From NCBI GenBank assembly GCA_000196815.1, contig FP929003.1, forward strand, positions 3,247,501 to 3,311,500: DNA of 64,000 bases, written 5' to 3'. The DNA is from Nitrospira defluvii (GTDB lineage Bacteria; Nitrospirota; Nitrospiria; Nitrospirales; Nitrospiraceae). Positions 890 to 51,726 of this stretch are shown piece after piece. Under the pieces are notes generated by a model that saw nothing but the letters and a program-made list of their open reading frames with translations, did not search any database and was not told the DNA's origin. Every line of letters starts with the position of its first letter. Within the stretch, counting starts at the first letter, position 1. A program made the position numbers and the translations under genes.

Positions 890-3800
890 GAAAACCTCCC
901 GATGGCGTGTCGTTCCGTCGCAAGCGGAATTGAGACGGTAAAGGTGGTTCCTTTCCCGACTTCGCTCTCGACAAAAATCCTCCCGCCATGCCGCTCCACA
1001 ATGCCCAGGCTGACGGACAGGCCAAGCCCGGTGCCCTCTCCTTCATTTTTTGTGGTGAAGAACGGGTCGAAAATCCGCGGCAACACGGAGGACGAAATGC
1101 CGCAACCCGAATCCTGAATTCGAACCAGGCAGTGGGCCTCGTCCATCGACGTGCGAATGGTCAGGACTCCACCGGTCCGCATCGCTTGAATGGCATTCAA
1201 CACAAGATTCATCAACACCTGCTCCATCATATGCCGATCGATCATCAACTCCGGGATGTCGGGAGAAAGCGCCGTCTCCAGCTGTACTCGATGGGGGACA
1301 AACAGATGGTCCGTCAGAAGCAATACCCGATTGACGACTTGGTTAATATCAGCCAACGCAAGTTCCGGGTTGTGTTGCTGCGAGAAATCGAGCAGTTGCC
1401 GGACGATCCGCTGCACCCGGCGCAATCCGTCTTCCATCGACGCCAGGTACTCCTCCTGCCGGGACGGCGACAGGGTTCCCTTACGCATATTGTACAGACA
1501 ATTGAGAATACCCCCGAGTGGGTTGTTGATCTCGTGCGCAACCCCCGCAGCCAGTTTTCCGACCGACGCCAGCTTCTCGGAGTTTCTGATTTGTTGCTCC
1601 AGCTTCTTGGTCTCCGTCATATCGCGGGCGATTCCCAGCACGCCCAGGATCTCCCCCTCTACGCCATGAAGCGGGGAGACGCTGACCATCACGGAACGCG
1701 GCTCGCCAGACTTCGTCAACACTTCGACCTCATAGACCTGTTTCACTCCGATATCCAGCGTGGATTTCAACCGACGCCCGCGATGCCGTTTCGACAGTAA
1801 CCCCAGATACGGCCGCCCCAACAGATCTTCCTTGGCATACCCCCAAGCCAGCACCTTGCTGTTCACATACGTGAAACACTGCTCGCTATCGAGCGTGTAA
1901 ATGACGTCATTGGCGTTCTCTAGGAGGTTCTCCAGGTACTGTTTGGTTTCTTCGATCTCGCGGGTTCGCTCGCCGACCTTCGCCTCCAGCTCCTGCTGGT
2001 AGGTATGCATCTGCCGCTCAAGACGTTTCCGGTCGGTGATGTCGCGCAACTGAACCATGACCCAGGTATGATCGCTGCCGCGCACCAGAATCAGGTCCAT
2101 CTCCACCGGCGTTTCCCTGCCGGTAGCATCGCGCACGGTGATTTCCTGAGTCGGCACCTGGCGCTCACCCGCGCGGATCTTTTCCAGCAGCACCCGCATC
2201 TCGTCATGGTGAAGCGGTTCGACCACGTTGAGAATGCTGCTTCCGACGACCTGTTGCTCCGAGTAGCCCAGCGCCTGCTCTTCCCGTTTATTGACGGCCA
2301 CAATCACGCCGTCTTCCCCTACCATAAACACCGAATCCGCCACCAGGTCGAACAAGGCCTTATACCGTTCTTGCGAGGCCACCAGTTGTCGTGTGCGCTC
2401 GTTGACCGCCAGTTCCAGCCTGGTCGTGTACTGATGGATTTGCGCCTCCAACAGGCGCCGTTCCGTGACATCTCGGACAAACGCGCGCGAGTGAACCAGA
2501 CCGCCCCCGCTTTCGAATAGGGCCGTCGCATGAATTTCCACGTCGATCGGGTGGCCGTCCCCGGCCACAAACACCGTCTCTATCGTGCTGCGCCCCTGCG
2601 AGACCAACCGCTCCAGATAGGCCAACACCTCCGCCTCGCGGCCTTTGGGAACGAGATCCCAAAGGCGCATCTGAAGCATCTCCTCCAAGGAATAACCGAG
2701 CTTGTCCAGGCCGGTCTTATTCACGTGCACAAACTGGCCGGCTTTGTTCAACTGATAGATCATCTCGGGGGAATGTTCGATGAGATCGCGATACCGCGCC
2801 TCCAGCCGGCGGACATCTTCCATCCGCTGCTCGATCTGTTCGAACGAGGTACGCAGATTCGCCGCCATCTTATTGAAGGCGTCCGCCAGTTGCTCGATTT
2901 CATCGCCGGTCTTGAGATCCAACTGCTGATCCAACCGCCCGCTTCCGATCCGCTGCACTCCTTCGTGCAACAGTCCGATCGGACGGGCGATACGTCGCGC
3001 GACGGTCAGACCCGTGAGTAACAGCACGCCGAACACCCCTAGCCCGTACACCGTCACTTGCACGACGAGCCGCGAGAGCGGCGCATAGGACTCGGCCGGG
3101 TCCTGCCGTACGAATGTCACCCACCGCTTGCCACCCAGACTGTCCGGCGTCAGTTCAGCTCCCAGCCGGACCGGCGCAAACCCCACGATCGAATCCTGTC
3201 CCCCGTGCGAATCATTGGCCAGCGTGGTCCATCCCGCGGGACTCGCGCTGATAGCGCTCACCAGCTCAGGCTTCACCGCATGTTCTTCCGGTGCCAGAAC
3301 CGGACAAATCAATGGGACCCCGTCAGAATTGAACAACATGGCATGCCCCGTCTGCCCCACCGTGGCTTCCGACACCGAATGAAACAGGGTGTCCCGCCGC
3401 AACAGCACGGTGACCGCACCGATCGTCACATGCTGGTCATCGTCGATGATCGGGGCCGACACATTGACGACGTGGGTGCCGAAAGCAGGGTCGAAGAAAA
3501 TATCGCTGACAAACACCTTCCCCGTTCCGCGCTTCATGACCGCCTGCCACCAGGCCGCCTTGCCATGGTAATACTCAACCTGCGGGATCGAACTCACCAC
3601 CAGAGCGCCGCGATTGTCTGTGACAAAGATCCCCACGTAGTCGGCCTTGCGGATATCATGCCAACGAATCAAATAGTTGGTCACAATCCGGTTGATGAAC
3701 AACGGAAACTCGCTCTGCTTATCCCGTTGACGCCACCGCTGTTGCCAGGCTTTGATCATGGACTGGACGGTTTTTTCGTCCTTGTCCAGGTAGGTGCGAT

Positions 3801-4062
3801 TGGATTCGGTCACCGAGGTGCGCAGGAAGGGTGTGGCGGCGAGTTGCTGCGCCTCGTTGACGCCCCGCGTCACTTGCATCTCAATTCGCCGGGCAGCCTC
3901 GACCGCCACCTCTTTAAAGTTGGCCCCGATCGTTTCCCGAAGCGCCCGGCGTTCTTCGATATAGGTGAGGACGAGTGAGAGGCACAACGGCAGGAGGCCG
4001 ACCATCACGATCGCCGTGATGATCTTTCGCTGGAGACTGTGAGATCGGCTCCAGAACAGCAT
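886..4062 (-). CDS. Membrane sensor histidine kinase (Cache-HAMP-PAS3-HisKA-HATPase)
   Basis: 1058-residue sensor kinase. It has an N-terminal membrane segment (about 13-33), a roughly 290-residue periplasmic region of Cache type, and a second membrane helix (about 330-352). These are followed by HAMP and three PAS domains beginning with ERYRDLI-like sequences (about 425, 570 and 705). The dimerisation/phosphoacceptor helix carries H843 in HEINNPLGG. The ATPase domain shows an N box (NLVLNAIQAM), G1 (DSGCGIS), F box (FDPFFTTK) and G2 (GTGLGL). All motifs for activity are present, in contrast to the damaged ATPase of its partner regulator. It overlaps that regulator by four bases. A perfect TATAAT box sits just upstream, so the pair probably has its own promoter. 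The stimulus is unknown; Cache domains usually bind small molecules. Confidence 0.93.
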   Translation of the reverse strand: MLFWSRSHSLQRKIITAIVMVGLLPLCLSLVLTYIEERRALRETIGANFKEVAVEAARRIEMQVTRGVNEAQQLAATPFLRTSVTESNRTYLDKDEKTVQSMIKAWQQRWRQRDKQSEFPLFINRIVTNYLIRWHDIRKADYVGIFVTDNRGALVVSSIPQVEYYHGKAAWWQAVMKRGTGKVFVSDIFFDPAFGTHVVNVSAPIIDDDQHVTIGAVTVLLRRDTLFHSVSEATVGQTGHAMLFNSDGVPLICPVLAPEEHAVKPELVSAISASPAGWTTLANDSHGGQDSIVGFAPVRLGAELTPDSLGGKRWVTFVRQDPAESYAPLSRLVVQVTVYGLGVFGVLLLTGLTVARRIARPIGLLHEGVQRIGSGRLDQQLDLKTGDEIEQLADAFNKMAANLRTSFEQIEQRMEDVRRLEARYRDLIEHSPEMIYQLNKAGQFVHVNKTGLDKLGYSLEEMLQMRLWDLVPKGREAEVLAYLERLVSQGRSTIETVFVAGDGHPIDVEIHATALFESGGGLVHSRAFVRDVTERRLLEAQIHQYTTRLELAVNERTRQLVASQERYKALFDLVADSVFMVGEDGVIVAVNKREEQALGYSEQQVVGSSILNVVEPLHHDEMRVLLEKIRAGERQVPTQEITVRDATGRETPVEMDLILVRGSDHTWVMVQLRDITDRKRLERQMHTYQQELEAKVGERTREIEETKQYLENLLENANDVIYTLDSEQCFTYVNSKVLAWGYAKEDLLGRPYLGLLSKRHRGRRLKSTLDIGVKQVYEVEVLTKSGEPRSVMVSVSPLHGVEGEILGVLGIARDMTETKKLEQQIRNSEKLASVGKLAAGVAHEINNPLGGILNCLYNMRKGTLSPSRQEEYLASMEDGLRRVQRIVRQLLDFSQQHNPELALADINQVVNRVLLLTDHLFVPHRVQLETALSPDIPELMIDRHMMEQVLMNLVLNAIQAMRTGGVLTIRTSMDEAHCLVRIQDSGCGISSSVLPRIFDPFFTTKNEGEGTGLGLSVSLGIVERHGGRIFVESEVGKGTTFTVSIPLATERHAIGRFS

Positions 4063-4099
4063 GGGTGCGACGTACCCCGACTAACGGCCCTCTCACATG

Positions 4100-4105
4100 A
4101 TTATA
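4100..4105 (-). promoter_or_regulatory. Candidate -10 box for the kinase-regulator pair
   Basis: Read on the minus strand this is a perfect TATAAT, 38 bases before the kinase start codon in the 76-base gap after secF. No good -35 hexamer lies 16-18 bases upstream (the sequence there is GC-rich). The promoter is either activator-dependent or fortuitous. Confidence 0.4.
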
Positions 4106-4138
4106 TAGGGTTTCGGCCAAGGCCCGGACGACCCGAGC

Positions 4139-5056
4139 TTAGCGACGCTTCATGAGCCCCCCGGCACTGCCAGGCCACAGCAGCAACAACGGGCTCGCCA
4201 CGAAGACCGATGAATAGGTTCCGAACATCACGCCCCCGAGCAACGCCAGGGAGAAATCGTGCAAGACCTCGGCGCCTGCGAGCACCAGCGGAATGAGCAC
4301 GATGACCACGGTCAAACTGGTGACGATGGTGCGGCTCAACACCTGATTGATGGCCTGGTTGATGATCGTTTCTTCATCCTCACGCCGGCGCGTCCGCAAA
4401 TTCTCACGGATACGATCGAAGACGACCACGGTGTCCGTCAACGAATACCCGGCCAAGGTCAGCAACGCCGTGATCACCAGCAACGTGATCTCTTTATCCA
4501 GTAGATAGAATACCCCGAGCACGGCCAGCACATCATGGAATGTCGCCAGGGCGGCGGCTACACCGAACCGCAACTCAAACCGGACCGCAATATAGAGCAC
4601 GATCCCGACGAACGAAATCAGGACCGCAATCATGGCATCTTCCTGGAGCTTCTTCCCGATCGTCGGACCGATTTCCATGCTGGAATCGACCACAAACTTG
4701 TTGGCGGGGAATTCCTTACTGAACACTGCCATGACCCGTTCGGCCACTTTCTCCTCAATCGTCGTCGACGCCTTCACACGAATGAGCAACTTGTTGTCTT
4801 GCGTAAACTCCTGCAACTCCGCCGACCCCAGACCGTTATTTTCCAGAGCACGTCTCGCTTCGTCGATCTTCATCGCTTGCTCGAACTTCAACTGCACCGC
4901 CGTCCCGCCGGCGAAGTCGATTCCCAGATTCGCTGCGCCGCGCGCAATTTGAAGCACCGCGATGAGACCCAGAAAGGCAAGGATGCCGGAGATCACAAAT
5001 GTGATCGACCGCTTCCCCATGAAATCGATATTCGTCTTCCCCAAAATCTCGAACAT
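4139..5056 (-). CDS. secF: Protein translocase subunit SecF
   Basis: 305 residues, a normal length for SecF. With SecD and YajC it forms the membrane accessory complex that uses the proton gradient to pull proteins out of the SecYEG channel on the periplasmic side. It shows the SecF N-terminal helix, the first periplasmic domain with DFAGGTAVQLKF (compare the family's DFxGGT), and five further helices including YSLTDTVVVFDRIRE and a glycine-rich C-terminal helix. It follows secD with a 12-base gap, in the common yajC-secD-secF order. The start ATG at 5056 follows a GGAGCC-type ribosome site. Confidence 0.97.
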   Translation of the reverse strand: MFEILGKTNIDFMGKRSITFVISGILAFLGLIAVLQIARGAANLGIDFAGGTAVQLKFEQAMKIDEARRALENNGLGSAELQEFTQDNKLLIRVKASTTIEEKVAERVMAVFSKEFPANKFVVDSSMEIGPTIGKKLQEDAMIAVLISFVGIVLYIAVRFELRFGVAAALATFHDVLAVLGVFYLLDKEITLLVITALLTLAGYSLTDTVVVFDRIRENLRTRRREDEETIINQAINQVLSRTIVTSLTVVIVLIPLVLAGAEVLHDFSLALLGGVMFGTYSSVFVASPLLLLWPGSAGGLMKRR

Positions 5057-5068
5057 GCTGGCTCCTTC

Positions 5069-6718
5069 CTAGATACTGAGCTGCTCAATTTTTCTGCGCT
5101 GATTGAACAGGTCGAACACCACTTTGGTCCCGACCAGCGCCGTAAAGAGGTTGATCGCGATACCGAGGCAGAGCGTCACGGCAAAGCCTTTGATCGGCCC
5201 GGTACCGAAGAGAAACAGGGCGAACCCGGTAATCAACGTCGTCACGTGCGAGTCCACGATCGTCAGCAACGCCTTGTCGTATCCCGCATCGATCGCAACC
5301 CGAACAGCCTTTCCCTGGCGCAGCTCTTCGCGGATGCGCTCGAAAATCAACACGTTCGAGTCCACACCCATACCGATTGTCAGAATGATACCGGCAATGC
5401 CCGGCAGGGTCAGCGTGGCGTTCAGGCCGGCGAGCGCCCCGATCAGACAAATCAGGTTCAGCAACAGCGCGAAGTTTGCGATCACGCCGGACAGGCGGTA
5501 ATACAGCGCCATAAACACGATCACAAGGAGGCCCGCAAAGAGAGTGGCCTTCACACCTTTTTCAATGGAGTCCTGCCCGAGAGACGGACCAACGGTCAGG
5601 TCCTGGATGATCTTGAGCGGTGCAGGCAGGGCCCCGGCGCGCAACACGATCGACAGGTTGTTCGCTTCTTCCATCGAAAACGTCCCGGTGATCTGCGCTC
5701 GCCCGCCGCTGATTCGTTCCTGAATGACCGGCGCTGAATAAATCGTATTGTCGAGCACGATCGCCATGCGCTTCTTCACGTTCTCGCCCGTGATGCGGTC
5801 GAATTCCCGGGCGCCTTTCGCATCGAACGTCACGGACACGTAGGGTTCATTGAACTGGCCGATGGAGACCCGCGCATCGCTCAACACGTCGCCGGCCAGC
5901 ATCACCCGTTTTTTCACCAGATAGGGCGCAAGCCATTCCTGCCCGCTCTCTTTTTCGACGATCCGCTCGAACAGGATCTGGTCGCCTTCCGGCACTTTCC
6001 CCTCAACCTGCTTCAGGAACGCGTCCTCGCGCTCTTTACCCTTCTGAATTCGGCCGGGCAGATCCAGCTTGAGCTGATTCTCATCGTCCAGCAATTTGAA
6101 CTCGAGCAGCGCAGTCTGTTTGATCAGATCCTTGGCAAGCTTGGCATCCTTGATACCGGGCAACTGGACGACCACCTGCTTGAGCCCCTGTCGCTGGATC
6201 AACGGCTCTGCCACACCGAACTGGTCAATGCGATTCCGGATCGTTTCCAACGCCTGATTGATGGCGGAGTCCTTGATGCGCTTGATTTCCGCATCCCGCA
6301 ACTCCCAGACGACCTTGTTGGCGGACCCAGCCGACTCCACCTCCACATAGGTCGGGAAATCGTCCAACATCTTCTGGACCTGCGCCTTCAATTCGGCATT
6401 TTGAAATCCAATGGTGATCTGCGACGAGCCGGTACGTTTCACCGACTCCGCTGGAATTTTCTTTTCAACCAGCAAATCCTGGAGCCCCGCCGCCGTCCGC
6501 TCTACGGCAATCTCGACAGCCCGATCTTCCTCCACCTCCAGCACCAGATGAATGCCGCCCTGCAAATCCAACCCCAGGGTGATGCCCTTATCCGGCAGGA
6601 CCTCACGCACCCACCGCGGCAGTTCCTTGTACAGAGGTTGATATGAGGGCAGGAAAAAGATGATCGAGGCGACCACCATTGTTACGAGGGCCAATAACCG
6701 TCCGCCGACTTTTTTCAT
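5069..6718 (-). CDS. secD: Protein translocase subunit SecD
   Basis: 549 residues with six predicted membrane helices and a large periplasmic P1 region. Family signatures are visible: GLDLQGGIHLVLEV near the N terminus, a head-domain sequence with EPYVSVTFDAKG, and MGVDSNVLIFERIRE in the conserved C-terminal membrane region. It partners SecF in the proton-driven late steps of Sec export. It lies between yajC and secF in one minus-strand train. Length and motifs are ordinary and I see no sign of truncation. Confidence 0.97.
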   Translation of the reverse strand: MKKVGGRLLALVTMVVASIIFFLPSYQPLYKELPRWVREVLPDKGITLGLDLQGGIHLVLEVEEDRAVEIAVERTAAGLQDLLVEKKIPAESVKRTGSSQITIGFQNAELKAQVQKMLDDFPTYVEVESAGSANKVVWELRDAEIKRIKDSAINQALETIRNRIDQFGVAEPLIQRQGLKQVVVQLPGIKDAKLAKDLIKQTALLEFKLLDDENQLKLDLPGRIQKGKEREDAFLKQVEGKVPEGDQILFERIVEKESGQEWLAPYLVKKRVMLAGDVLSDARVSIGQFNEPYVSVTFDAKGAREFDRITGENVKKRMAIVLDNTIYSAPVIQERISGGRAQITGTFSMEEANNLSIVLRAGALPAPLKIIQDLTVGPSLGQDSIEKGVKATLFAGLLVIVFMALYYRLSGVIANFALLLNLICLIGALAGLNATLTLPGIAGIILTIGMGVDSNVLIFERIREELRQGKAVRVAIDAGYDKALLTIVDSHVTTLITGFALFLFGTGPIKGFAVTLCLGIAINLFTALVGTKVVFDLFNQRRKIEQLSI

Positions 6719-42844: not shown

Positions 42845-43163
42845 GAGTCGCCTCCCTTCGGACAGCTGGTGAGATCTCCCGTCCTGTCCGGAAGATCTGG
42901 TGCCCATGTGAACAACTCAACACCATCAGTTCTGAGAAGAAGCAATGTGGATGCCACCGATCGCACCGGGGCATTTTTTCACCTGGCCGAAGGATGCGAT
43001 CACACAAAAATCGATCCTCTCGCGCCTAATTGACTCGGCTGTGACCGAATTGGTCTCATGGGAGAAAAATGGGTAGAATCGACTAACTCCGCCGAAAACC
43101 TATCTACCCCTGCTGAATCAGGGGACAGATCTATTCCTGCGGACCGGGAGCAACGTACCGAAA
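42845..43163. other. Divergent intergenic region
   Basis: 319 bases between the zinc-ribbon gene and the NFACT gene. It contains the candidate NFACT promoter and no convincing coding frame; the frame open from 43058 is a shadow of the NFACT gene. Confidence 0.5.
43050..43079 (+). promoter_or_regulatory. Candidate promoter of the NFACT gene
   Basis: TTGGTC (43050-43055) and TAGAAT (43074-43079) are separated by 18 bases. The start codon lies about 85 bases downstream. Confidence 0.4.
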
Positions 43164-44627
43164 ATGGCGCTCAGCGCGACAGAAATTGGTTCCATTGTTC
43201 ACGAACTGGCGCCGGCCCTGGCCGACGGGTGGATCCAGAAGATCTCCCAACCGCTACCCGATTGCCTGTTGTTGGAGGTTCGTGTGCCCGGCCACACTCG
43301 TCGATTGCTCTGTTCCCTGCGCGACGGAACGGCACGGATACACCTCGTGCGCGAGAGCCTTCCCAACCCGCCGACCCCGCCCTCGTTTTGCCAACTGCTG
43401 CGGGCACGCATACAAGGCGCGCGTATCGACGGCATCACACATATCCCAGGCGATCGGATCGTTCGAATGGACCTGACAAGCCGGGATGGACCGGTGACCT
43501 TGATCGCGGAACTGTTCGGTCGAAACGCAGACCTGTTATTTCTGGATGGAGAGACACGCGTGCTGGCCACGCTTCGTCACAATAGAGACCGGGTGGGCCA
43601 GGTCTACCAGGCGCCGGCCCCGGCCCCATTTCGATCATCGTCCTCAGAAACAGCGACTCCGGCGTCGGAACCTCAGCCTCCGACGGAGGCTGATCCATTC
43701 CCGCTCTCATCCGGACTGGAAATCCTCTATCGGGAGCGCGAAGCAGAGCTGTCGCATGTCGCCCAGGTCCGCCAGCGCGAATCCGCACTACGAAAAACCC
43801 TCAAGAAACTTCTGCGTCGCATGGAGGGGCTCCGTCGCGACCTCGAACAGGCTGGACGCTACGAGCCCTACGCACGATATGGAGAACTGTTGAAAGCCAA
43901 TCTCGGATTACTGAAGAAAGGCATGACCGCCGTCTCGGTGGTGGACTATTACGATGAGCGCCTACCGGAATTGACGATTCCGCTCGATGCCACCAAGGGT
44001 CCGCAGGCCAACATGGATGCGTACTTCGCCAAATATCGGAAATTCGTCTCTGCCCAGCGCGAAATTGCACCGCGCATAGCGGCCATCGAGACGGAAGTCC
44101 AGCAACTTCAGGCCGAATTAGAGACCATCAAACATGGAAGCTGGCAGGCGCCGAGTGGTGAGCACCGAGCGACCACCGGGACACTGTCTCGGCAGGTCCG
44201 GAAGCGAGGCGCAGACGAGGAACGCCGGGGGCCGTTTCGACGCTTTATTTCATCGGACGGCCATCCGATCTTTGTCGGGCGCAACGCCCGCGAAAATGAC
44301 GAACTCACGTTCGGCCTCGCCAAAAGCGAGGACCTCTGGCTCCATGCGCGCGGCACGCCGGGCTCGCATGTCGTTGTGCGCTTGGAGAAGGGTACCGATC
44401 CGCCGCCTGAGACGATACGCGACGCCGCCACGCTCGCCCTGTTGTATAGCGATCTAAAAAAAAGCGGGAAGGGCGATGTCATTTACACTCGCCGCAAATG
44501 GGTCAAGAAATCCAAGGGCCAGGCACCCGGAGCGGTGACCGTTACCCAAGAGAAAACCATCTACATCACCCTCGACAAAACGCGTCTCGCGGCCCTCAAA
44601 GCGAGAAACACCGAAGGAAGGCCCTAG
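43164..44627 (+). CDS. NFACT-family protein (RqcH-like ribosome quality control factor)
   Basis: 487 residues, shorter than the roughly 570-residue Bacillus RqcH. The NFACT-N domain (about 1-170) opens with an LxxELxPxLxxGxIQKIxQP pattern; a helical coiled-coil middle (about 190-310, KTLKKLLRRMEGLRRDLEQ) follows; the NFACT-R (DUF814) domain carries FISSDGHPIFVGRNARENDELTF and DLWLHARGTPGSHVVVR. RqcH binds the 60S/50S-peptidyl-tRNA complex and adds alanine tails to stalled chains. The C-terminal NFACT-C part seems absent. Alternative name: fibronectin-binding protein FbpA-like. Confidence 0.87.
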   Translation: MALSATEIGSIVHELAPALADGWIQKISQPLPDCLLLEVRVPGHTRRLLCSLRDGTARIHLVRESLPNPPTPPSFCQLLRARIQGARIDGITHIPGDRIVRMDLTSRDGPVTLIAELFGRNADLLFLDGETRVLATLRHNRDRVGQVYQAPAPAPFRSSSSETATPASEPQPPTEADPFPLSSGLEILYREREAELSHVAQVRQRESALRKTLKKLLRRMEGLRRDLEQAGRYEPYARYGELLKANLGLLKKGMTAVSVVDYYDERLPELTIPLDATKGPQANMDAYFAKYRKFVSAQREIAPRIAAIETEVQQLQAELETIKHGSWQAPSGEHRATTGTLSRQVRKRGADEERRGPFRRFISSDGHPIFVGRNARENDELTFGLAKSEDLWLHARGTPGSHVVVRLEKGTDPPPETIRDAATLALLYSDLKKSGKGDVIYTRRKWVKKSKGQAPGAVTVTQEKTIYITLDKTRLAALKARNTEGRP

Positions 44628-44686
44628 ACGAAACACTTCAGCCTGCTCCGCGCCGCCTTTCCCTCACTGTTCGAGAAATGATAGAG

Positions 44687-44702
44687 TGCCCACATATGGG
44701 CA
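44687..44702. promoter_or_regulatory. 16-bp palindrome at the regulator start codon (site 1)
   Basis: TGCCCACATATGGGCA, extending to a perfect 18-bp palindrome (44686-44703), contains the regulator's ATG at 44696. The same motif recurs after the gene with 15 of 16 matches. It suits autorepression by the encoded regulator. Confidence 0.65.
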
Positions 44703-46738
44703 CCAGCACGGACAGACGAGATCGATTTCGTATTCTCAGTGCGCTGCTCCAAGCAAAAACGCTTCGGCAGTTCGATGAACGTCTTCAGCAGGAACTGGCG
44801 CCCCTCCTAGGCTGCGAGATCATCGGCCTCTACTTGTATAGTGAAAGCACGGCGGCCTTCTCGCCCGTCTCGGAAAGCCTCCGCACGCCGGCGTCGCCCG
44901 CCTATCCGATCGATCAGTTGCCCGCCGCCGGTACCATCAAAGAAGCCGCCGTGCTCGCCGGGCAGGCCATCTTCACACACGACTTGAGTGCCTCGCCTTG
45001 GGCCGAGGCACAGGCCATCGACCTCCGATCCTGCCAAGCCACCTCGGTCCTGGTGTCCCCGATCAGGATACCGGCTGAATCCCGGCCCTGCGCAACCGCC
45101 AAGACCCTGGCCGTCATGGTAGCCATCTCGCCGGGAAGGCCCGGTCTCTTTTCTGAAGAGGACCGGGTGTTTCTCGACATGCTCGGCCTTCACATCGCAC
45201 CGGTCCTGACTGCGGTCCTGGCGGCCGAAGAACGCGACACCCTGGTCGCCATCAACAGCCAGGTCGTACTGGGCACCATGACCCTGGATAATCTCCTGAG
45301 TTCGATACAACCCATTCTCCGTGAGGTCATTCCTCACGACACGACCGGCCTCGTTCGATTCATCGGCGCTCCCCACGGCCCCTGGTTCGAAATCGTGTCC
45401 TGTGAAGGCGTCGCCGTCGATCAGGAGGCGCTGAGACAATTTCCCTTCGAGCGGATGGCGCCGGCCGAAATCCTGGCCACCGGAAAGCCCCTGCTGCTCA
45501 CCGGATACAACCAGGAACGATTTGCGGAGCATACGTATTTCGAGTCACTCGGCGTGTTCTCCGCCATGCTCTGCCCGCTGCTCGTCCGCGGAACGCCGTA
45601 CGGCTTTCTGGCGATCGGAAGCAGACGGCGGAACGCCTTCTCCGAACGCGACCTGGCGCTGGCCGAACAGATCGGCTTTCACCTGTCCCACGCCATCGCC
45701 AATCTCTCAGCCTACGACCAGATCCGTCAGCTCAAGGACCAGCTGGAACAGGAAAATGTCTATCTGCGTGAGGAGATGGGCGCCTCTCTGGACCTGAAAA
45801 GCCTGATCGGCAACAGCGCCGCGCTGCAGAAATCGCTCAAGGCCATTGAGCAGGTGGCACCGACCGACTCCACGGTGCTCATCACCGGGGAAACCGGGAC
45901 AGGCAAGGAGCTGGTGGCTCAAGCCATTTATCGACTCTCGCCGCGCCAACACAAGGCGCTGATTACCGTGAACTGCGCCGCGCTCCCGCCCACACTCATC
46001 GAATCCGAACTCTTTGGTCACGAACGGGGCGCCTTCACCAACGCCACATCCCGCAAATTGGGGCGCTTTGAACTGGCGCACGGCGGCACGATTTTCCTCG
46101 ACGAAGTGGGAGAACTTCCGATCGACCTACAAATGAAACTCCTGCGCGTGCTGGAGGCCCAGGAATTCAACCGGGTCGGGGGAAGCCACACCATTCGAGT
46201 CGATGTACGCGTGCTTGCCGCCACCAACGTCGATCTGGATCAGGCCATCAAACGGGGCTCGTTTCGGGCCGATCTCTTCTATCGCCTCAACGTCTTCCCG
46301 CTGCGTCTTCCGACCTTGCGCGAACGCCGCGAGGACATCCCGCTTTTGGCCCGCCACTTTGTGAAGAAATACGGGCTGCGCCACCGGAAGCCGGTCACAC
46401 GGATTCACGGCGCGGCGTTGAATGCCCTGTCCGCCTATGACTGGCCGGGGAATGTCCGGGAGCTGGAACATGTGATCGAGCGCGCCGTCATCGTAAGCCA
46501 AGGCTCGACGATCACCGTCAATGAACTGGATGGATTGGGCCGCGGACAAGACCCGTCCCCCGGGCCGCGGACGCTCGCAGAAGCTGAACGTGCGCACATC
46601 GTTGAGACACTCTCTCGAACCAATTGGATCCTGGCGGGCAAACAAGGAGCGGCGGAGAAATTGGGACTGAAACGGTCCACGCTCCAACACCGCATGAAAA
46701 AACTCGACATCAGCCGCCCGCCTCGACAGGCCTCGTGA
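44696..46738 (+). CDS. GAF-domain sigma54-dependent transcriptional activator (Fis-type)
   Basis: 680 residues from ATG 44696 (ATG 44678 is an alternative; neither has a strong ribosome site). Two GAF domains (about 15-170 and 185-340) precede a coiled linker and an intact AAA+ domain: Walker A GETGTGKE, the sigma54 loop as GAFTNA, Walker B GGTIFLDEVGE, and the R-finger region NVFPLRLPTLRERREDIP. A Fis-type HTH (GAAEKLGLKRSTLQHRMKKL) ends the protein. It resembles FhlA/NorR-like activators; the GAF ligand is unknown. It is flanked by two copies of a palindrome and lies just upstream of an efflux operon with a sigma54 promoter, its probable target. Confidence 0.92.
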   Translation: MGTSTDRRDRFRILSALLQAKTLRQFDERLQQELAPLLGCEIIGLYLYSESTAAFSPVSESLRTPASPAYPIDQLPAAGTIKEAAVLAGQAIFTHDLSASPWAEAQAIDLRSCQATSVLVSPIRIPAESRPCATAKTLAVMVAISPGRPGLFSEEDRVFLDMLGLHIAPVLTAVLAAEERDTLVAINSQVVLGTMTLDNLLSSIQPILREVIPHDTTGLVRFIGAPHGPWFEIVSCEGVAVDQEALRQFPFERMAPAEILATGKPLLLTGYNQERFAEHTYFESLGVFSAMLCPLLVRGTPYGFLAIGSRRRNAFSERDLALAEQIGFHLSHAIANLSAYDQIRQLKDQLEQENVYLREEMGASLDLKSLIGNSAALQKSLKAIEQVAPTDSTVLITGETGTGKELVAQAIYRLSPRQHKALITVNCAALPPTLIESELFGHERGAFTNATSRKLGRFELAHGGTIFLDEVGELPIDLQMKLLRVLEAQEFNRVGGSHTIRVDVRVLAATNVDLDQAIKRGSFRADLFYRLNVFPLRLPTLRERREDIPLLARHFVKKYGLRHRKPVTRIHGAALNALSAYDWPGNVRELEHVIERAVIVSQGSTITVNELDGLGRGQDPSPGPRTLAEAERAHIVETLSRTNWILAGKQGAAEKLGLKRSTLQHRMKKLDISRPPRQAS

Positions 46739-46739
46739 G

Positions 46740-46755
46740 TGCCCGTATGTGGGCA
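46740..46755. promoter_or_regulatory. 16-bp palindrome upstream of the efflux operon (site 2, candidate enhancer)
   Basis: TGCCCGTATGTGGGCA on the plus strand; its reverse complement differs from site 1 at one base. It lies about 145 bases upstream of the -24/-12 promoter, a usual distance for sigma54 enhancer sites, with a very AT-rich stretch (46814-46855) between them where a bend could form. Confidence 0.65.
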
Positions 46756-46883
46756 TGCACCCCCACTCCTTGCCGAACTCTCGGCACTTCTCCCTAATCA
46801 TCTACTTCCGACACATTTTTTATTTATTCTCTTTCTCCTTAATTTTCAGTGACTTGTTCGTCTTTCTGACTTCCACCTGTCGC

Positions 46884-46899
46884 TGGCATCCCCCCTGCT
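46884..46899 (+). promoter_or_regulatory. Sigma54 (-24/-12) promoter of the efflux operon
   Basis: TGGCATCCCCCCTGCT matches TGGCACG-N4-TTGCT with the GG and GC dinucleotides at the exact required spacing (46885-46886 and 46897-46898). Transcription should start near 46910, only about three bases before the first ATG. Confidence 0.7.
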
Positions 46900-46912
46900 C
46901 TAGTATGCCGGC

Positions 46913-47329
46913 ATGAAGATCGTCGCTTCAGGACTGACACCAGCCACCGTGAGCCGTGACATCGAGGCCTATGTCGCCGCGAGACAGGCCGAATTGCTCC
47001 CGTCGGGCGAGGCAAGCAAAGACGGGCGCCGGTTCTCCTGGTGCGGGGAAATTCTGGACTTTCTGACCGAAGGACTGGCGGAACGATTCGCCGCTAACGG
47101 CATTACCTTCACCGATGCCTTTCCAGGCCCCTTACGGCTGATGGATGAAGACCAACAGCCGAACGGGCAACATGTGCGGCGTTTCTGGACCATCGCCCTG
47201 CACCATGGCTGTCCCGTCGCCAGGATCTGCACCTATTTTTTCCATCGACATGATCAAGTGAGCCTTCCGCAATTGCCACGCGTGGTGGCCTATGCCCCGA
47301 CCAGCCCGGCTCAGGAAGAGCAGGAATGA
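46913..47329 (+). CDS. Small protein of unknown function, first in the efflux operon
   Basis: 138 residues, no signal peptide or membrane helix. No family recognised. It has a mixed alpha/beta composition with RRFSWCGEILDFLTEGL, FWTIALHHGCPVARICTYFFHRHD and a polar tail; the Cys/His-rich centre could bind a metal. No ribosome site precedes ATG 46913 and the predicted sigma54 start is at about 46910, so the message may be leaderless or the true start may be internal. The stop overlaps the permease start by four bases. Confidence 0.6.
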   Translation: MKIVASGLTPATVSRDIEAYVAARQAELLPSGEASKDGRRFSWCGEILDFLTEGLAERFAANGITFTDAFPGPLRLMDEDQQPNGQHVRRFWTIALHHGCPVARICTYFFHRHDQVSLPQLPRVVAYAPTSPAQEEQE

Positions 47330-48456
47330 ATTACATCGCCCTCAGAATGCTCTTTGGCGATCGGGCGAAATACCTCATGCTGCTGTGCGGTCTCACCTTT
47401 GCGGTCATGTTGATCGTTCAACAAGGCTCAATTTTTTGGGGGCTCATGATCTGGTCCCAATCCAGTATCAGCAATCTCAACGTGCCGATCTGGGTCACGG
47501 ATCCAGGCATCGCGCAGGTCGATGAAGTCAAACCGATCGCCGATACCACGGTCGATCGCGTGCGCAGCATCCCCGGTGTGGAATGGGCCGTGCCTCTGTA
47601 TAAAGGGCTCTTACGGGCCAGGCTTGAGAACGGCGAGTATCACCAAATCACCTTGACAGGCCTGGACGCCGCCACCTTGATCGGCCGTCCGGCAGAAGTG
47701 CTGGAGGGCCGATTCGAAGACCTCCGGCAACCTGACGCCGTGGCCCTCGATCAATGGGCCGTCGAACGCATGGGTGGGCCAACAGTCATCACGGTCGGCA
47801 CGGTCTTCGAACTCAACGACAAGCTGGCCCGCGTCGTCGCCATTGCCAAGACGCAAAAGACCTTCACCAACATTCCGGTCGTCTACACCACCTACGAGCG
47901 CGCCTTGCGCTATGTCCCGCGAGAACGGCGCACCCTCTCGTACGTCCTCGCAAAAGCCAAAGACAGCGCGCCGGTGGACGAGGTGATCCAACGTATTCGC
48001 GACCACACTGGACTGGGCGCCTTCACCGCCGACGCGTTCGGATGGAAAACGATCGGCTGGGTGCTGAAGAACACCGGCATCGGAATCAATTTCGGCACCA
48101 CGATTCTGTTGGGCTTCGTGGTCGGGATGGCCATCGCAGGGCAAACGTTTTACCTCTTTACGGTCGAAAACCTGCGGCAGTTCGGCGCGCTCAAAGCCAT
48201 GGGCGCTTCCACCGCGACTCTGGCCCGCATGATTCTCCTGCAAGCATTCACCGTAGGAGTCACAGGGTATGGGGTCGGAATCGGACTCGCCACCGTCTTC
48301 GGGCTACTGACGGCACAAGAGGGTCAGCTCCCGTTCCTGGAAACCTGGCCACTGCTCCTGTTGGTCTTTGTTGCCCTGCTCATGATCTGCACATTGTCGG
48401 CGCTGATCAGCATCATCAAACTCGCCCGGCTTGAGCCGGCGATTGTGTTCCGATGA
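47326..48456 (+). CDS. ABC transporter permease (MacB/FtsX type)
   Basis: 376 residues. One N-terminal helix, a roughly 220-residue periplasmic domain (MacB-PCD-like, with WVTDPGIAQVDEVKPI), and three C-terminal helices (about 255-370) with the FtsX pattern VENLRQFGALKAMGASTATLARMILLQ. Such permeases work as mechanotransducers that move substrate within the periplasm through an adaptor and TolC-like channel. It overlaps the genes on both sides by four bases (ATGA) and pairs with the following ATPase. Confidence 0.88.
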   Translation: MNYIALRMLFGDRAKYLMLLCGLTFAVMLIVQQGSIFWGLMIWSQSSISNLNVPIWVTDPGIAQVDEVKPIADTTVDRVRSIPGVEWAVPLYKGLLRARLENGEYHQITLTGLDAATLIGRPAEVLEGRFEDLRQPDAVALDQWAVERMGGPTVITVGTVFELNDKLARVVAIAKTQKTFTNIPVVYTTYERALRYVPRERRTLSYVLAKAKDSAPVDEVIQRIRDHTGLGAFTADAFGWKTIGWVLKNTGIGINFGTTILLGFVVGMAIAGQTFYLFTVENLRQFGALKAMGASTATLARMILLQAFTVGVTGYGVGIGLATVFGLLTAQEGQLPFLETWPLLLLVFVALLMICTLSALISIIKLARLEPAIVFR

Positions 48457-49220
48457 CCGCCATGGATGGTTCGTCACAGTCACAGGGCCGCACAGCGGAA
48501 GGCAACGGAGCCGAGCAAGCCATCGCCGTGCAGGTCCGAGGACTCGTCAAGTCGTTCGGGTCCGGCGAGACTGCGGTCACAGTGCTCAAGGGCATCGATC
48601 TCAACGTATATTTCGGCGAACTGCTGCTGCTCGTCGGAGAATCGGGGGGAGGCAAGACGACCCTGCTGTCGGCGATCGCCGGAATCCTCGATATTGATGC
48701 CGGCGACCTCGATGTGCTGGGATCCTCGCTGACCAACATGTCGCCCGGCACGCGCACCCGTTTTCGTGGGCGAACCATGGGATTTATCTATCAACAGTTC
48801 AATCTCCTGCCCGCCTTGACGGCGGCCGAGAATGTCGCCGTTCCGCTCTTGATCCAAGGCACTCGGAAGAAGGAGGCGCTCTCACGAGGGCGGCTGATGC
48901 TTGAACGTGTCGGGCTCGGCGACCGGACCGAGTTTTTACCGCGCAACCTCTCCGGTGGCCAGCAGCAGCGCGTCGCCATTGCCCGGGCGTTGGTCAATGA
49001 GCCGCAGCTGCTGGTGTGCGACGAGCCGACCGCCGCCCTGGACGGGCCCAATGGGCAGAAGATCATGGAATTGATTCGAGATGTGGGGCGTGCCCCTGAT
49101 CGTTGCGTCATCGTCGTCACCCATGACAGCCGGATTTTTCAGTTCGGTGATCGCATGGCGGAATTGACCGACGGCCGCATTGTCGGCATTCACCCGATTC
49201 AGAGAGAGGCCACCGCATGA
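48453..49220 (+). CDS. ABC transporter ATP-binding protein (MacB/LolD type)
   Basis: 255 residues. Walker A GESGGGKTT (about 67-75), Q-loop YQQFNLLPALTAAENV, signature LSGGQQQRVAIARAL, Walker B LLVCDEPTAALD and H-switch VTHDSR are complete. The Q-loop wording is typical of the LolD/MacB/FtsE group. A roughly 25-residue polar extension precedes the domain. It energises the adjacent permease and is translationally coupled on both sides. Confidence 0.92.
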   Translation: MTAMDGSSQSQGRTAEGNGAEQAIAVQVRGLVKSFGSGETAVTVLKGIDLNVYFGELLLLVGESGGGKTTLLSAIAGILDIDAGDLDVLGSSLTNMSPGTRTRFRGRTMGFIYQQFNLLPALTAAENVAVPLLIQGTRKKEALSRGRLMLERVGLGDRTEFLPRNLSGGQQQRVAIARALVNEPQLLVCDEPTAALDGPNGQKIMELIRDVGRAPDRCVIVVTHDSRIFQFGDRMAELTDGRIVGIHPIQREATA

Positions 49221-50209
49221 CCATTCTCAACCGCGTTAGTGTCTGGCTCGCCATCGCAGGCGCGATGCTGGCGGCCTGGGTTGTCCTGACTGCCGGCAAG
49301 AACCAGCCTATGCCGACGCCGCTAGTAGAGCCACCCCGGTCTCCCTATGAAACGACCGTCGCCGCGACCGGTATTATTGAAGCCGCCAACGAAAACGTCC
49401 GTATAGGGCCGCCGATGGCAGGACTGGTGACGAACGTGTTCGTGACGGTCGGCGACCGGGTTCGTGAGGGCGATCCCCTACTTCAATTGGACGATCGAGA
49501 CCTTCGCGCGCAACTGGTGGCCCGCCAGGCCGCGATTCCACCGGCGGAAGCCCAAGTCGAAGAGCAGAAATATCGCATCGGCGATCTCGACACGCAGCTC
49601 AAGCGACTGAAATCGGTTCGGGACAGCCGGGCGGTCAGCGAAGACGACGTGAAGCGTACCTGGTACGCCTCGGAAATGGCAAAACGCGCGCTGAACCGCT
49701 ACGAGGCCACCCTCAAACAAGTCATCGCCCAGCGCGACGAAACACAGATGCTGCTGGACCGCCTGACAGTCCGCGCACCGCGGGCCGCGACGATTTTGCA
49801 GGTCAATGTCCGGGCCGGTGAATTCGCCCTGACCACCGGTGCCACCGAGCCGCTCATGCTCCTGGGCGACATACAGCAACTGCAAGTCCGCGCAGAGGTC
49901 GATGAGGTCAATGCTCCGTTGGTGGCTCCCAACCGACCCGGGATCGCCTACCTGAAGGGCAATACTGCCCAGGCCATTCCGCTGACATTCGTGCGCATCG
50001 AGCCTTATATTGTCCCCAAAAAATCCCTGACCGGAGACAACAGCGAACGGGTCGATACGCGGGTCCTCCAGATCATCTACCGCTTCGAACGGCCGGCGTT
50101 TCCGATCTATGCCGGACAGCAGGTCGATGTGTTCATCGAACGCGCACCGGACGGACCACCGGCACCAGCACCCGGCAGCGCACGTTCCGCTGAGGAACCG
50201 ACCAAATGA
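49217..50209 (+). CDS. Periplasmic adaptor (HlyD/MacA-type) of the efflux system
   Basis: 330 residues. One N-terminal helix (about 8-28) anchors the protein. A lipoyl half-motif (ATGIIEAANENVRIGPPMAGLVTNVFVTVGDRVREGDPLLQLDDRDL), a coiled-coil hairpin (about 95-180) and the second half-motif (LTVRAPRAATILQVNVRAGEFA) follow, then beta-barrel and membrane-proximal domains. It bridges the inner-membrane ABC transporter to the outer-membrane channel encoded next. It overlaps both neighbours by four bases. The C-terminal tail is rich in P and A. Confidence 0.9.
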   Translation: MTILNRVSVWLAIAGAMLAAWVVLTAGKNQPMPTPLVEPPRSPYETTVAATGIIEAANENVRIGPPMAGLVTNVFVTVGDRVREGDPLLQLDDRDLRAQLVARQAAIPPAEAQVEEQKYRIGDLDTQLKRLKSVRDSRAVSEDDVKRTWYASEMAKRALNRYEATLKQVIAQRDETQMLLDRLTVRAPRAATILQVNVRAGEFALTTGATEPLMLLGDIQQLQVRAEVDEVNAPLVAPNRPGIAYLKGNTAQAIPLTFVRIEPYIVPKKSLTGDNSERVDTRVLQIIYRFERPAFPIYAGQQVDVFIERAPDGPPAPAPGSARSAEEPTK

Positions 50210-51726
50210 AACGAGTCACGTCGCGCCGACAGCTCGCCATTTCCACCGTCCTCGTGATGTTGTCGCTGTCCGCCAGCGGGTGCCTGCAAGGCCCGAATTA
50301 CCATCGTCCACCGGTCGACACACCGGCCGACTGGACACGCATGGCTTCCGGCCCATTGGCTGCCGGAGCGACCGAGACGATGCCGGAAGCGGACTGGTGG
50401 CAGGCCTTCCACAACCAGGAGTTGACGCAGTTCGTGGAACGCGCGCTCGCACAAAACCACGACGTCCGCCGCGCCGTGTCTCGCGTGCTGGAGGGACGGG
50501 CCTCTGTCACTACCGCCGGTGCCGGCCTCTATCCACAGCTGAATGTGCAGGGCAGCTACAGCAATATCGTGGTGTCGAAAAACACCCTGGCAGGATTGGG
50601 CTTAGCCACCGGCCAACAACCGGGGCCACAGGTCTTTGCCAAGCCCGGAAGCAGTTTCGATCTCTGGAACGGGGCGGCGGACCTCCGATGGGAGCTGGAT
50701 GTGTGGGGTCGCATCCGTCGCGGGATGGAAGCCGCCTCGGCAGACGCGCAGGCGATCGAGCAGGACGCCCGCGCGATTGCGCTCACCTTGGTCGGCGATG
50801 TCGGGCAGTCGTACTTTCGAATTCGTGAGTTGGATGAGCAGATTGAAATCGCCCAACGCGCCCTCACGCTCCGACGGGACTCACTCGACATCATCACCAA
50901 GCGGGCATCAGTGGGCCTGGCTTCCGATCTGGATGTGAAACGAACGGAAGTCCTCGTCGCGGAAAGCGCGGGGCAGATCCCGGATCTGACTCGTCTGCGC
51001 GCCGTCGAATTACACCGGTTGGAGGTGTTGACGGGATCGGCGCCGGGCAGCGTAGTCTTGGCGCCGACCTCCTTGCGGAAAGTCATCGTGCAGCCGGAAA
51101 TTCCCGTCGGCCTTCCGTCGCAATTATTGGAACGGCGCCCCGACATCCTTCAGGCGGAGGCGTCACTCGTGGCCGCGAATGCCCGGATCGGTCAGGCGCG
51201 GGCCTATTTCTTCCCCACATTGTCCATCACGGGGCAAGGCGGCCTACAAAGCGCCGAGTTCGTAAACTGGTTCTCGGGAAACAGCGCGAATTTCAGTATC
51301 GGTCCATCGGTCACACTCCCCATTTTCCTGGGCGGGACCAACGTCGCGAGACTGGAGGCGGCCGAATCCCGATATCAACAAATGTTGGAAGGTTACCAAC
51401 AGACGATTTTGCTCGCCTTCCGTGAAGTGGCGGATCTGCTGGTGTCGATACAATCGCGTTCGGAACAACTTGCACGACAACGTGAGCAGGCGACGGCAGC
51501 CACGGCGGCCGTCGGACTGGCGGAGGTGCGTTATCGCAAGGGATTGGTCAACTACCTTGACGTTCTCGACGCACAACGAACGATGCTGGCCGCAGAAACA
51601 CAGCTTGCGCAAACCGAACGCGCCCGCCTCACCGACATGGTCGGCCTTTACAAAGCCCTCGGCGGCGGATGGCAGACGCCCGGCGACAATCCTCTTGCAA
51701 TGCCAACCGGCTCCGCCGCGCATTAA
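50206..51726 (+). CDS. Outer membrane efflux channel lipoprotein (NodT/TolC family)
   Basis: 506 residues. The signal peptide ends in a lipobox (LSASGC, lipidated Cys near residue 26), followed by LQGPNYHRPPVDTPADW, typical of NodT-type factors. Two outer-membrane-efflux repeats (about 75-270 and 290-490) supply the TolC-like helical barrel, including LLERRPDILQAEASLVAANARIGQARAYFFPTLSITG. It completes a tripartite efflux system with the preceding adaptor and ABC genes. Confidence 0.93.
   Translation: MKRVTSRRQLAISTVLVMLSLSASGCLQGPNYHRPPVDTPADWTRMASGPLAAGATETMPEADWWQAFHNQELTQFVERALAQNHDVRRAVSRVLEGRASVTTAGAGLYPQLNVQGSYSNIVVSKNTLAGLGLATGQQPGPQVFAKPGSSFDLWNGAADLRWELDVWGRIRRGMEAASADAQAIEQDARAIALTLVGDVGQSYFRIRELDEQIEIAQRALTLRRDSLDIITKRASVGLASDLDVKRTEVLVAESAGQIPDLTRLRAVELHRLEVLTGSAPGSVVLAPTSLRKVIVQPEIPVGLPSQLLERRPDILQAEASLVAANARIGQARAYFFPTLSITGQGGLQSAEFVNWFSGNSANFSIGPSVTLPIFLGGTNVARLEAAESRYQQMLEGYQQTILLAFREVADLLVSIQSRSEQLARQREQATAATAAVGLAEVRYRKGLVNYLDVLDAQRTMLAAETQLAQTERARLTDMVGLYKALGGGWQTPGDNPLAMPTGSAAH

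Follow-up and report, generated by a model that had tools for sequence, protein, structure and literature searches.

The 64,000-nucleotide window analysed here, part of the single-contig genome of Nitrospira defluvii (4,317,083 bases), very likely holds a local sigma54 circuit, in which a GAF-GAF-AAA-HTH protein would activate an exporter operon and repress its own promoter. The regulator adjoins the operon that it very probably switches on, and the genes follow one another on the plus strand in the order NFACT-domain gene, regulator, DUF6022 gene, permease, ATPase, adaptor and outer-membrane factor (Table 1). The candidate binding sites are unique in the genome, conserved in sequence and spacing, and co-inherited with the regulator and the DUF6022 gene.

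The mechanism that we infer starts with binding of the regulator to TGCCCRYATRYGGGCA. Dimers bound at sites 2 and 3, which lie in tandem on the same face of the helix some 130-160 bp upstream of the -12 element, would nucleate a ring, which with the aid of an IHF-type bend would contact sigma54 polymerase at its promoter and open the promoter of the operon; the trigger would be a signal sensed by the GAF domains. At site 1, the regulator would lie across its own transcription start and ATG, next to the extended -10 element; judging by the position of this site, it very probably lowers its own expression. The sequence-only reading had proposed such a combination of autoregulation and enhancer-driven activation by the adjacent regulator, and it stands as the best reading: a comparison of 236 genomes shows the palindrome, the regulator and the DUF6022 gene occurring together, the putative enhancer stays with the operon promoter despite inserted DNA, and the genome encodes a single rpoN and IHF-type proteins. 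The footprint alignment comprised 21 loci of the genus and about 30 from other genera and contained five conserved elements; the automated site search was threshold-based, with four loci added by eye, and as the loci are related, counts across them are not independent.

Table 1. Genes and candidate regulatory elements of the locus, in window coordinates.
Feature	Position	Strand	Basis
NFACT-domain gene	43164-44627	+	
Conserved CTTTC(C), weak -35-like, 19 nt before -10 hexamer	44657-44662	+	Columns kept in 37-50 of 50 loci; putative role
Extended -10 TGATAGAGT, consensus TGnTAnnnT, predicted vegetative-type regulator promoter	44679-44687	+	Footprinting
Site 1 TGCCCACATATGGGCA, candidate operator over predicted +1 and regulator ATG	44687-44702	.	
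Regulator gene, 680 aa, GAF-GAF-AAA(sigma54)-HTH_8, loop GAFTNA, ATG at predicted +1/+2	44696-46738	+	Pfam
Site 2 TGCCCGTATGTGGGCA, distal candidate enhancer site, just after regulator stop codon	46740-46755	.	
Site 3 TGCCGAACTCTCGGCA, degenerate proximal candidate enhancer site, 31 bp (3 turns) from site 2	46771-46786	.	
IHF-like site TTTCAGTGACTTG, 2 mismatches to WATCAANNNNTTR	46844-46856	+	Fixed position in 43 loci
Predicted sigma54 -24/-12 promoter TGGCATCCCCCCTGCT, predicted +1 46910	46884-46899	+	GG-N10-GC in 47 loci
DUF6022 gene (PF19486), first of the operon, with its start codon at about +4 (predicted)	46913-47329	+	27.4 bits, cut-off 25
FtsX/MacB-type permease, DevC-like	47326-48456	+	TIGR01185 65.9 bits, below cut-off 290
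ABC ATPase, DevA/LolD-like	48453-49220	+	Profile models
Periplasmic adaptor, HlyD/RND-MFP type	49217-50209	+	Profile models
Outer-membrane factor, NodT family	50206-51726	+	TIGR01845 385 bits, above cut-off 210

Distribution of the palindrome

The shared form of sites 1 and 2, TGCCCRYATRYGGGCA, is its own reverse complement and was counted exactly twice in the whole genome, at these two sites, with zero matches to the reversed control pattern; TGCCCRNNNNYGGGCA has four exact places in the whole genome. These counts rule out a genome-wide motif and leave TGCCCRYATRYGGGCA confined to the locus; the sequence-only reading had named a palindrome common across the genome as grounds for refutation, and the search did not bear this out. 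As originally described, site 1 spans the regulator ATG, and site 2 differs at one position from the reverse complement of site 1.

Within the genus, the exact palindrome was found in 21 of 29 genomes, only at the regulator locus, and is absent from all 8 genomes without the regulator. Among 236 genomes of the order, the motif occurs in 49 and the DUF6022 gene in 47, with both in 42, neither in 182, the palindrome without DUF6022 in 7 and DUF6022 without the palindrome in 5 (Fisher P 1.6e-33, to be read as descriptive rather than as a strict probability, since the genomes are related). The regulator is present at the palindrome in the relatives retrieved, at identities down to 51-60%, and its close relatives all belong to Nitrospira. 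One palindrome match in another family (G230), with no circuit genes found nearby, was taken as chance.

It is highly improbable that the palindromes are operators of another regulator encoded elsewhere, with the adjacent enhancer-binding protein (EBP) using other sites or none. Co-inheritance is only a correlation, and TetR-type regulators before the same exporter in an outgroup family mean that non-EBP control of the operon probably exists; however, the sites are gone where the regulator was lost and the exporter kept, the palindromes flank the regulator gene itself, in genome G128 a diverged regulator copy carries these sites too, near another target, and tandem, helically phased sites about 130-160 bp before a -24/-12 element are typical of EBP enhancers.

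The G128 locus (L160, reverse-complement coordinates 2400-5300) encodes a regulator of 51% identity, and no exporter was found nearby. Behind the gene come a perfect palindrome, a tandem pair of sites spaced by 31 bp and the -24/-12 element CGGCACTTTTCGTGCT, with a PEP-CTERM-type gene downstream and, farther on, a gene resembling the nitrite oxidoreductase beta subunit; the same DNA code seems to be reused here for another target.

The regulator, its tandem sites and the sigma54 promoter

By domain content, the regulator is of the bEBP class, and by curated cut-offs it is neither FhlA nor NorR. Its Pfam matches are PF01590/PF13185, PF00158 and PF02954; the sigma54-interaction AAA+ domain (PF00158) scores 238 bits against 20.2 and carries the Walker A motif GETGTGKE, and the HTH is of the Fis type (HTH_8), with candidate enhancer sites upstream of the -24/-12 element. 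Of the earlier description as a GAF-AAA-HTH protein, the class holds and the single GAF domain does not, Pfam giving two. Both names are ruled out by the equivalog cut-offs, with 396 of 830 bits for the FhlA model NF011958 and 369 of 476 bits for the NorR model NF003451. In 41 regulator orthologs, M1-G2 and the HTH stretch LKRSTLQHR are nearly invariant, the constancy of the HTH paralleling that of its site. In one ortholog (L022, G010), from a draft metagenome assembly, a TAG at codon 342 interrupts the reading frame while sites and promoter are intact, which points to either a pseudogene or an assembly error.

The sigma54-contact loop reads GAFTNA, and GAFTNA or GAFTSA was found in 37 of 43 scored orthologs, with G in only 3 of the 43. 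Such a loop could mark a sigma54-independent EBP that, in the manner of TyrR, uses all three sites to repress or to regulate vegetative promoters; TyrR, DhaR and HupR are precedents for such proteins (PMC3162934). This is nevertheless very unlikely: the -24/-12 element occurs in 47 loci and is lacking from those without regulator and sites, and F and T of the loop are retained. At loop position 5, D is validated and functional in FlgR, N and S being listed only as putatively functional (PMC3162934); in NorR, where this position controls repression by the GAF domain, G266N escapes that domain, and both G266N and G266D open promoters (PMC2941729). For an EBP that acts with sigma54, the orthologs would represent a natural test of non-Gly GAFTGA loops. 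Among 29 full-length sigma54-activator domains of the same genome, loop residue 5 often varies (GSFTDA, GAFTDA, GAFTNA, GAYTSA); in two of these domains, including one that lies at the window's left edge, the pattern used recognised no loop motif.

Site 3, missed by the sequence-only reading, has five mismatches to the consensus in the genome of the window. It lies 29-31 bp from site 2 in 41 loci and 19-20 bp in 6, accounting for all 47, with no spacing of 21-28 bp among them; the spacing is thus three or two helical turns. Since the distance from site 3 to the -12 element is steady, at about 127-131 bp in nearly all loci, it is site 2 that sits one turn closer in the six, so that the spacing of the candidate enhancer varies naturally by a whole helical turn. 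That site 3 is of one kind with site 2 is shown by G004, which has near-perfect versions of both, with TGCCGATATGCGGGCA as site 3, 31 bp apart and immediately upstream of the permease promoter. In four genomes (G065, G069, G194, G004), extra DNA has come between regulator and operon, and there the tandem pair remains with the operon promoter, as expected of an enhancer. The G004 locus (L116) has an unrelated ORF in place of DUF6022, with tandem sites and -24/-12 element retained before the permease, and its regulator is spread over three frames by two apparent frameshifts, which may be real or assembly errors.

The AT-rich bend noted previously between these sites and the promoter exists here as an AT-rich stretch (62% AT between site 3 and the -24 element, 74% in 46815-46860) and is ruled out as a conserved element by a mean of 49% AT in 43 genomes; what is conserved is the IHF-like motif inside it. 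In 43 loci, this motif has on average 2.51 mismatches at its fixed position, versus 5.12 +/- 0.51 elsewhere, and in G027 it matches the consensus exactly. The genome encodes homologues of IhfA, above the equivalog cut-off, and IhfB, just below it.

The predicted -24/-12 promoter is canonical, occurring at the same place in the related loci, and rpoN is present in one copy (PF04552, 191 bits). In the window, 2 motifs of this kind were found against 0.58 expected, so that a single one is not significant by itself. The second, TGGCATCCACATTGCT, at 42941-42956 on the minus strand, lies about 100 bp before a small cysteine-rich ORF (MTCTRCEGLM...) and could be a chance match.

Downstream, the extent of the five-gene operon (46913-51726) was read correctly, each start meeting or overlapping the preceding stop. 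DevA, DevB and DevC models score 217/296, 47.5/129 and 66/290 bits, and all Dev and Mac models stay below cut-off, the NodT model alone being passed. DUF6022 has the conserved residues WCG, C and HRHD; it has no assigned function, and an assignment by fold was rejected, the best PDB match to the AlphaFold model of moderate quality (pLDDT 85) being not significant (E 0.013, TM about 0.35, SnoaL/NTF2-like). A literature search found no paper on this circuit or on any DUF6022 function, and no mention of DUF6022.

Predicted start points of regulator and operon

The extended -10 element before site 1, likewise overlooked at first, reads TGnTAnnnT in every one of the 27 loci from other genera, taken unfiltered, and is visible in all 21 loci of the genus. 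The last base of its hexamer is the first base of the palindrome, and with the start thus predicted on or beside the ATG, the regulator transcript probably lacks a leader, and the operator would lie over its start. Least likely of all, site 1 would be conserved as protein code, an in-frame ATG/GTG 18 nt upstream making the stretch potentially coding, or as an RNA hairpin formed by the arms of the palindrome, rather than as an operator; but in the in-frame alternative from 44678 the invariant A falls on third codon positions while a first position varies freely, which argues for a constraint on DNA and not protein, the same motif recurs at the noncoding sites 2 and 3, and site 3, whose spacing is nevertheless fixed by helical turns, is not perfect enough to form a stable hairpin.

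For the operon, the geometry of the promoter is in keeping with a start near 46910, as predicted. The first start codon lies 14-17 nt past the C of the -12 element in 44 of 47 loci, with a GTG at the same spot in G108, a replacement at a fixed place that supports the codon as the real start. It falls at about +3 to +6 across loci and about +4 here, which suggests a leaderless mRNA from the sigma54 promoter; a conserved start codon at +4 of such a promoter would be unusual. More tentatively, as a possibility well short of an even chance, these sigma54 promoters may form a family-wide class that yields leaderless mRNA, with start codons at +3 to +6. The EBP driving them would naturally have the loop residue that frees NorR from its GAF domain, and control would then be exerted not by loop capture but at another step, for instance when the protein oligomerises or represses its own leaderless start.

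Related systems and history of the operon

The circuit would represent a known kind of gene switch, with details that are possibly new: a leaderless sigma54 start, an operator over a leaderless start codon, and a non-Gly loop. Nitrospira are key nitrite oxidisers and genetically hard to manipulate; the circuit could be tested in a surrogate host, as a one-target regulon with defined operator, tandem enhancer, promoter and exporter. With PspF/pspA of E. coli it would share an EBP, two enhancer sites before a sigma54 operon, IHF assistance and negative control of the regulator's own expression, which PspF exerts via enhancer binding (PMC3709507) and which is read here from sequence. It differs in that PspF has no GAF sensor, and in that a separate site covers the start of the regulator here, with the genes in tandem and the enhancer behind the regulator. 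As in NorR/norVW, a GAF-AAA-HTH activator would act from enhancer sites before a neighbouring sigma54 operon; unlike NorR, the protein has two GAF domains, a score below the NorR cut-off, a different operator, a natural N/S in the loop, and two sites rather than three. FhlA, likewise a GAF-containing EBP, is the best-scoring named model, but the regulator adjoins an exporter and not formate hydrogenlyase genes. The operon resembles those of DevBCA and MacAB-TolC in uniting permease, ATPase, adaptor and outer-membrane factor, and differs by DUF6022 as first gene and by predicted sigma54 control, DevBCA in cyanobacteria being controlled by NtcA.

In five genomes of the genus, the exporter lies directly behind the NFACT gene, with a permease 94-95% identical, and regulator, DUF6022, palindromes and -24/-12 element are all absent. 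In the sister family of the order, a TetR-type gene, assigned by reading the sequence and not by model search, precedes the same exporter (L185, L188 and L190 in G057, G207 and G212), and its presence in the place of the EBP indicates that the operon changed regulator class. In the permease tree, the TetR group forms a single clade; within Nitrospiraceae, loci with the EBP branch at the base, and those without it are nested among them at three or more points. The cassette is thus ancestral to Nitrospiraceae and has been lost repeatedly. A recent gain of the regulator is ruled out by the basal EBP loci and by DUF6022 scars in EBP-less genomes (G138, G106, G114, G142 and G085, tblastn E 4e-9 to 4e-4; weaker in G094 and G096); no convincing match to EBP remnants was found in the gaps of EBP-less genomes. 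The natural series of TetR-type neighbour, EBP-controlled and EBP-lost loci would show how an operon changes its regulator. In G118, an internal deletion took most of the regulator and the three sites and the promoter are retained with slight decay, and G152 retains site 1, the -24/-12 element and shreds of the regulator.
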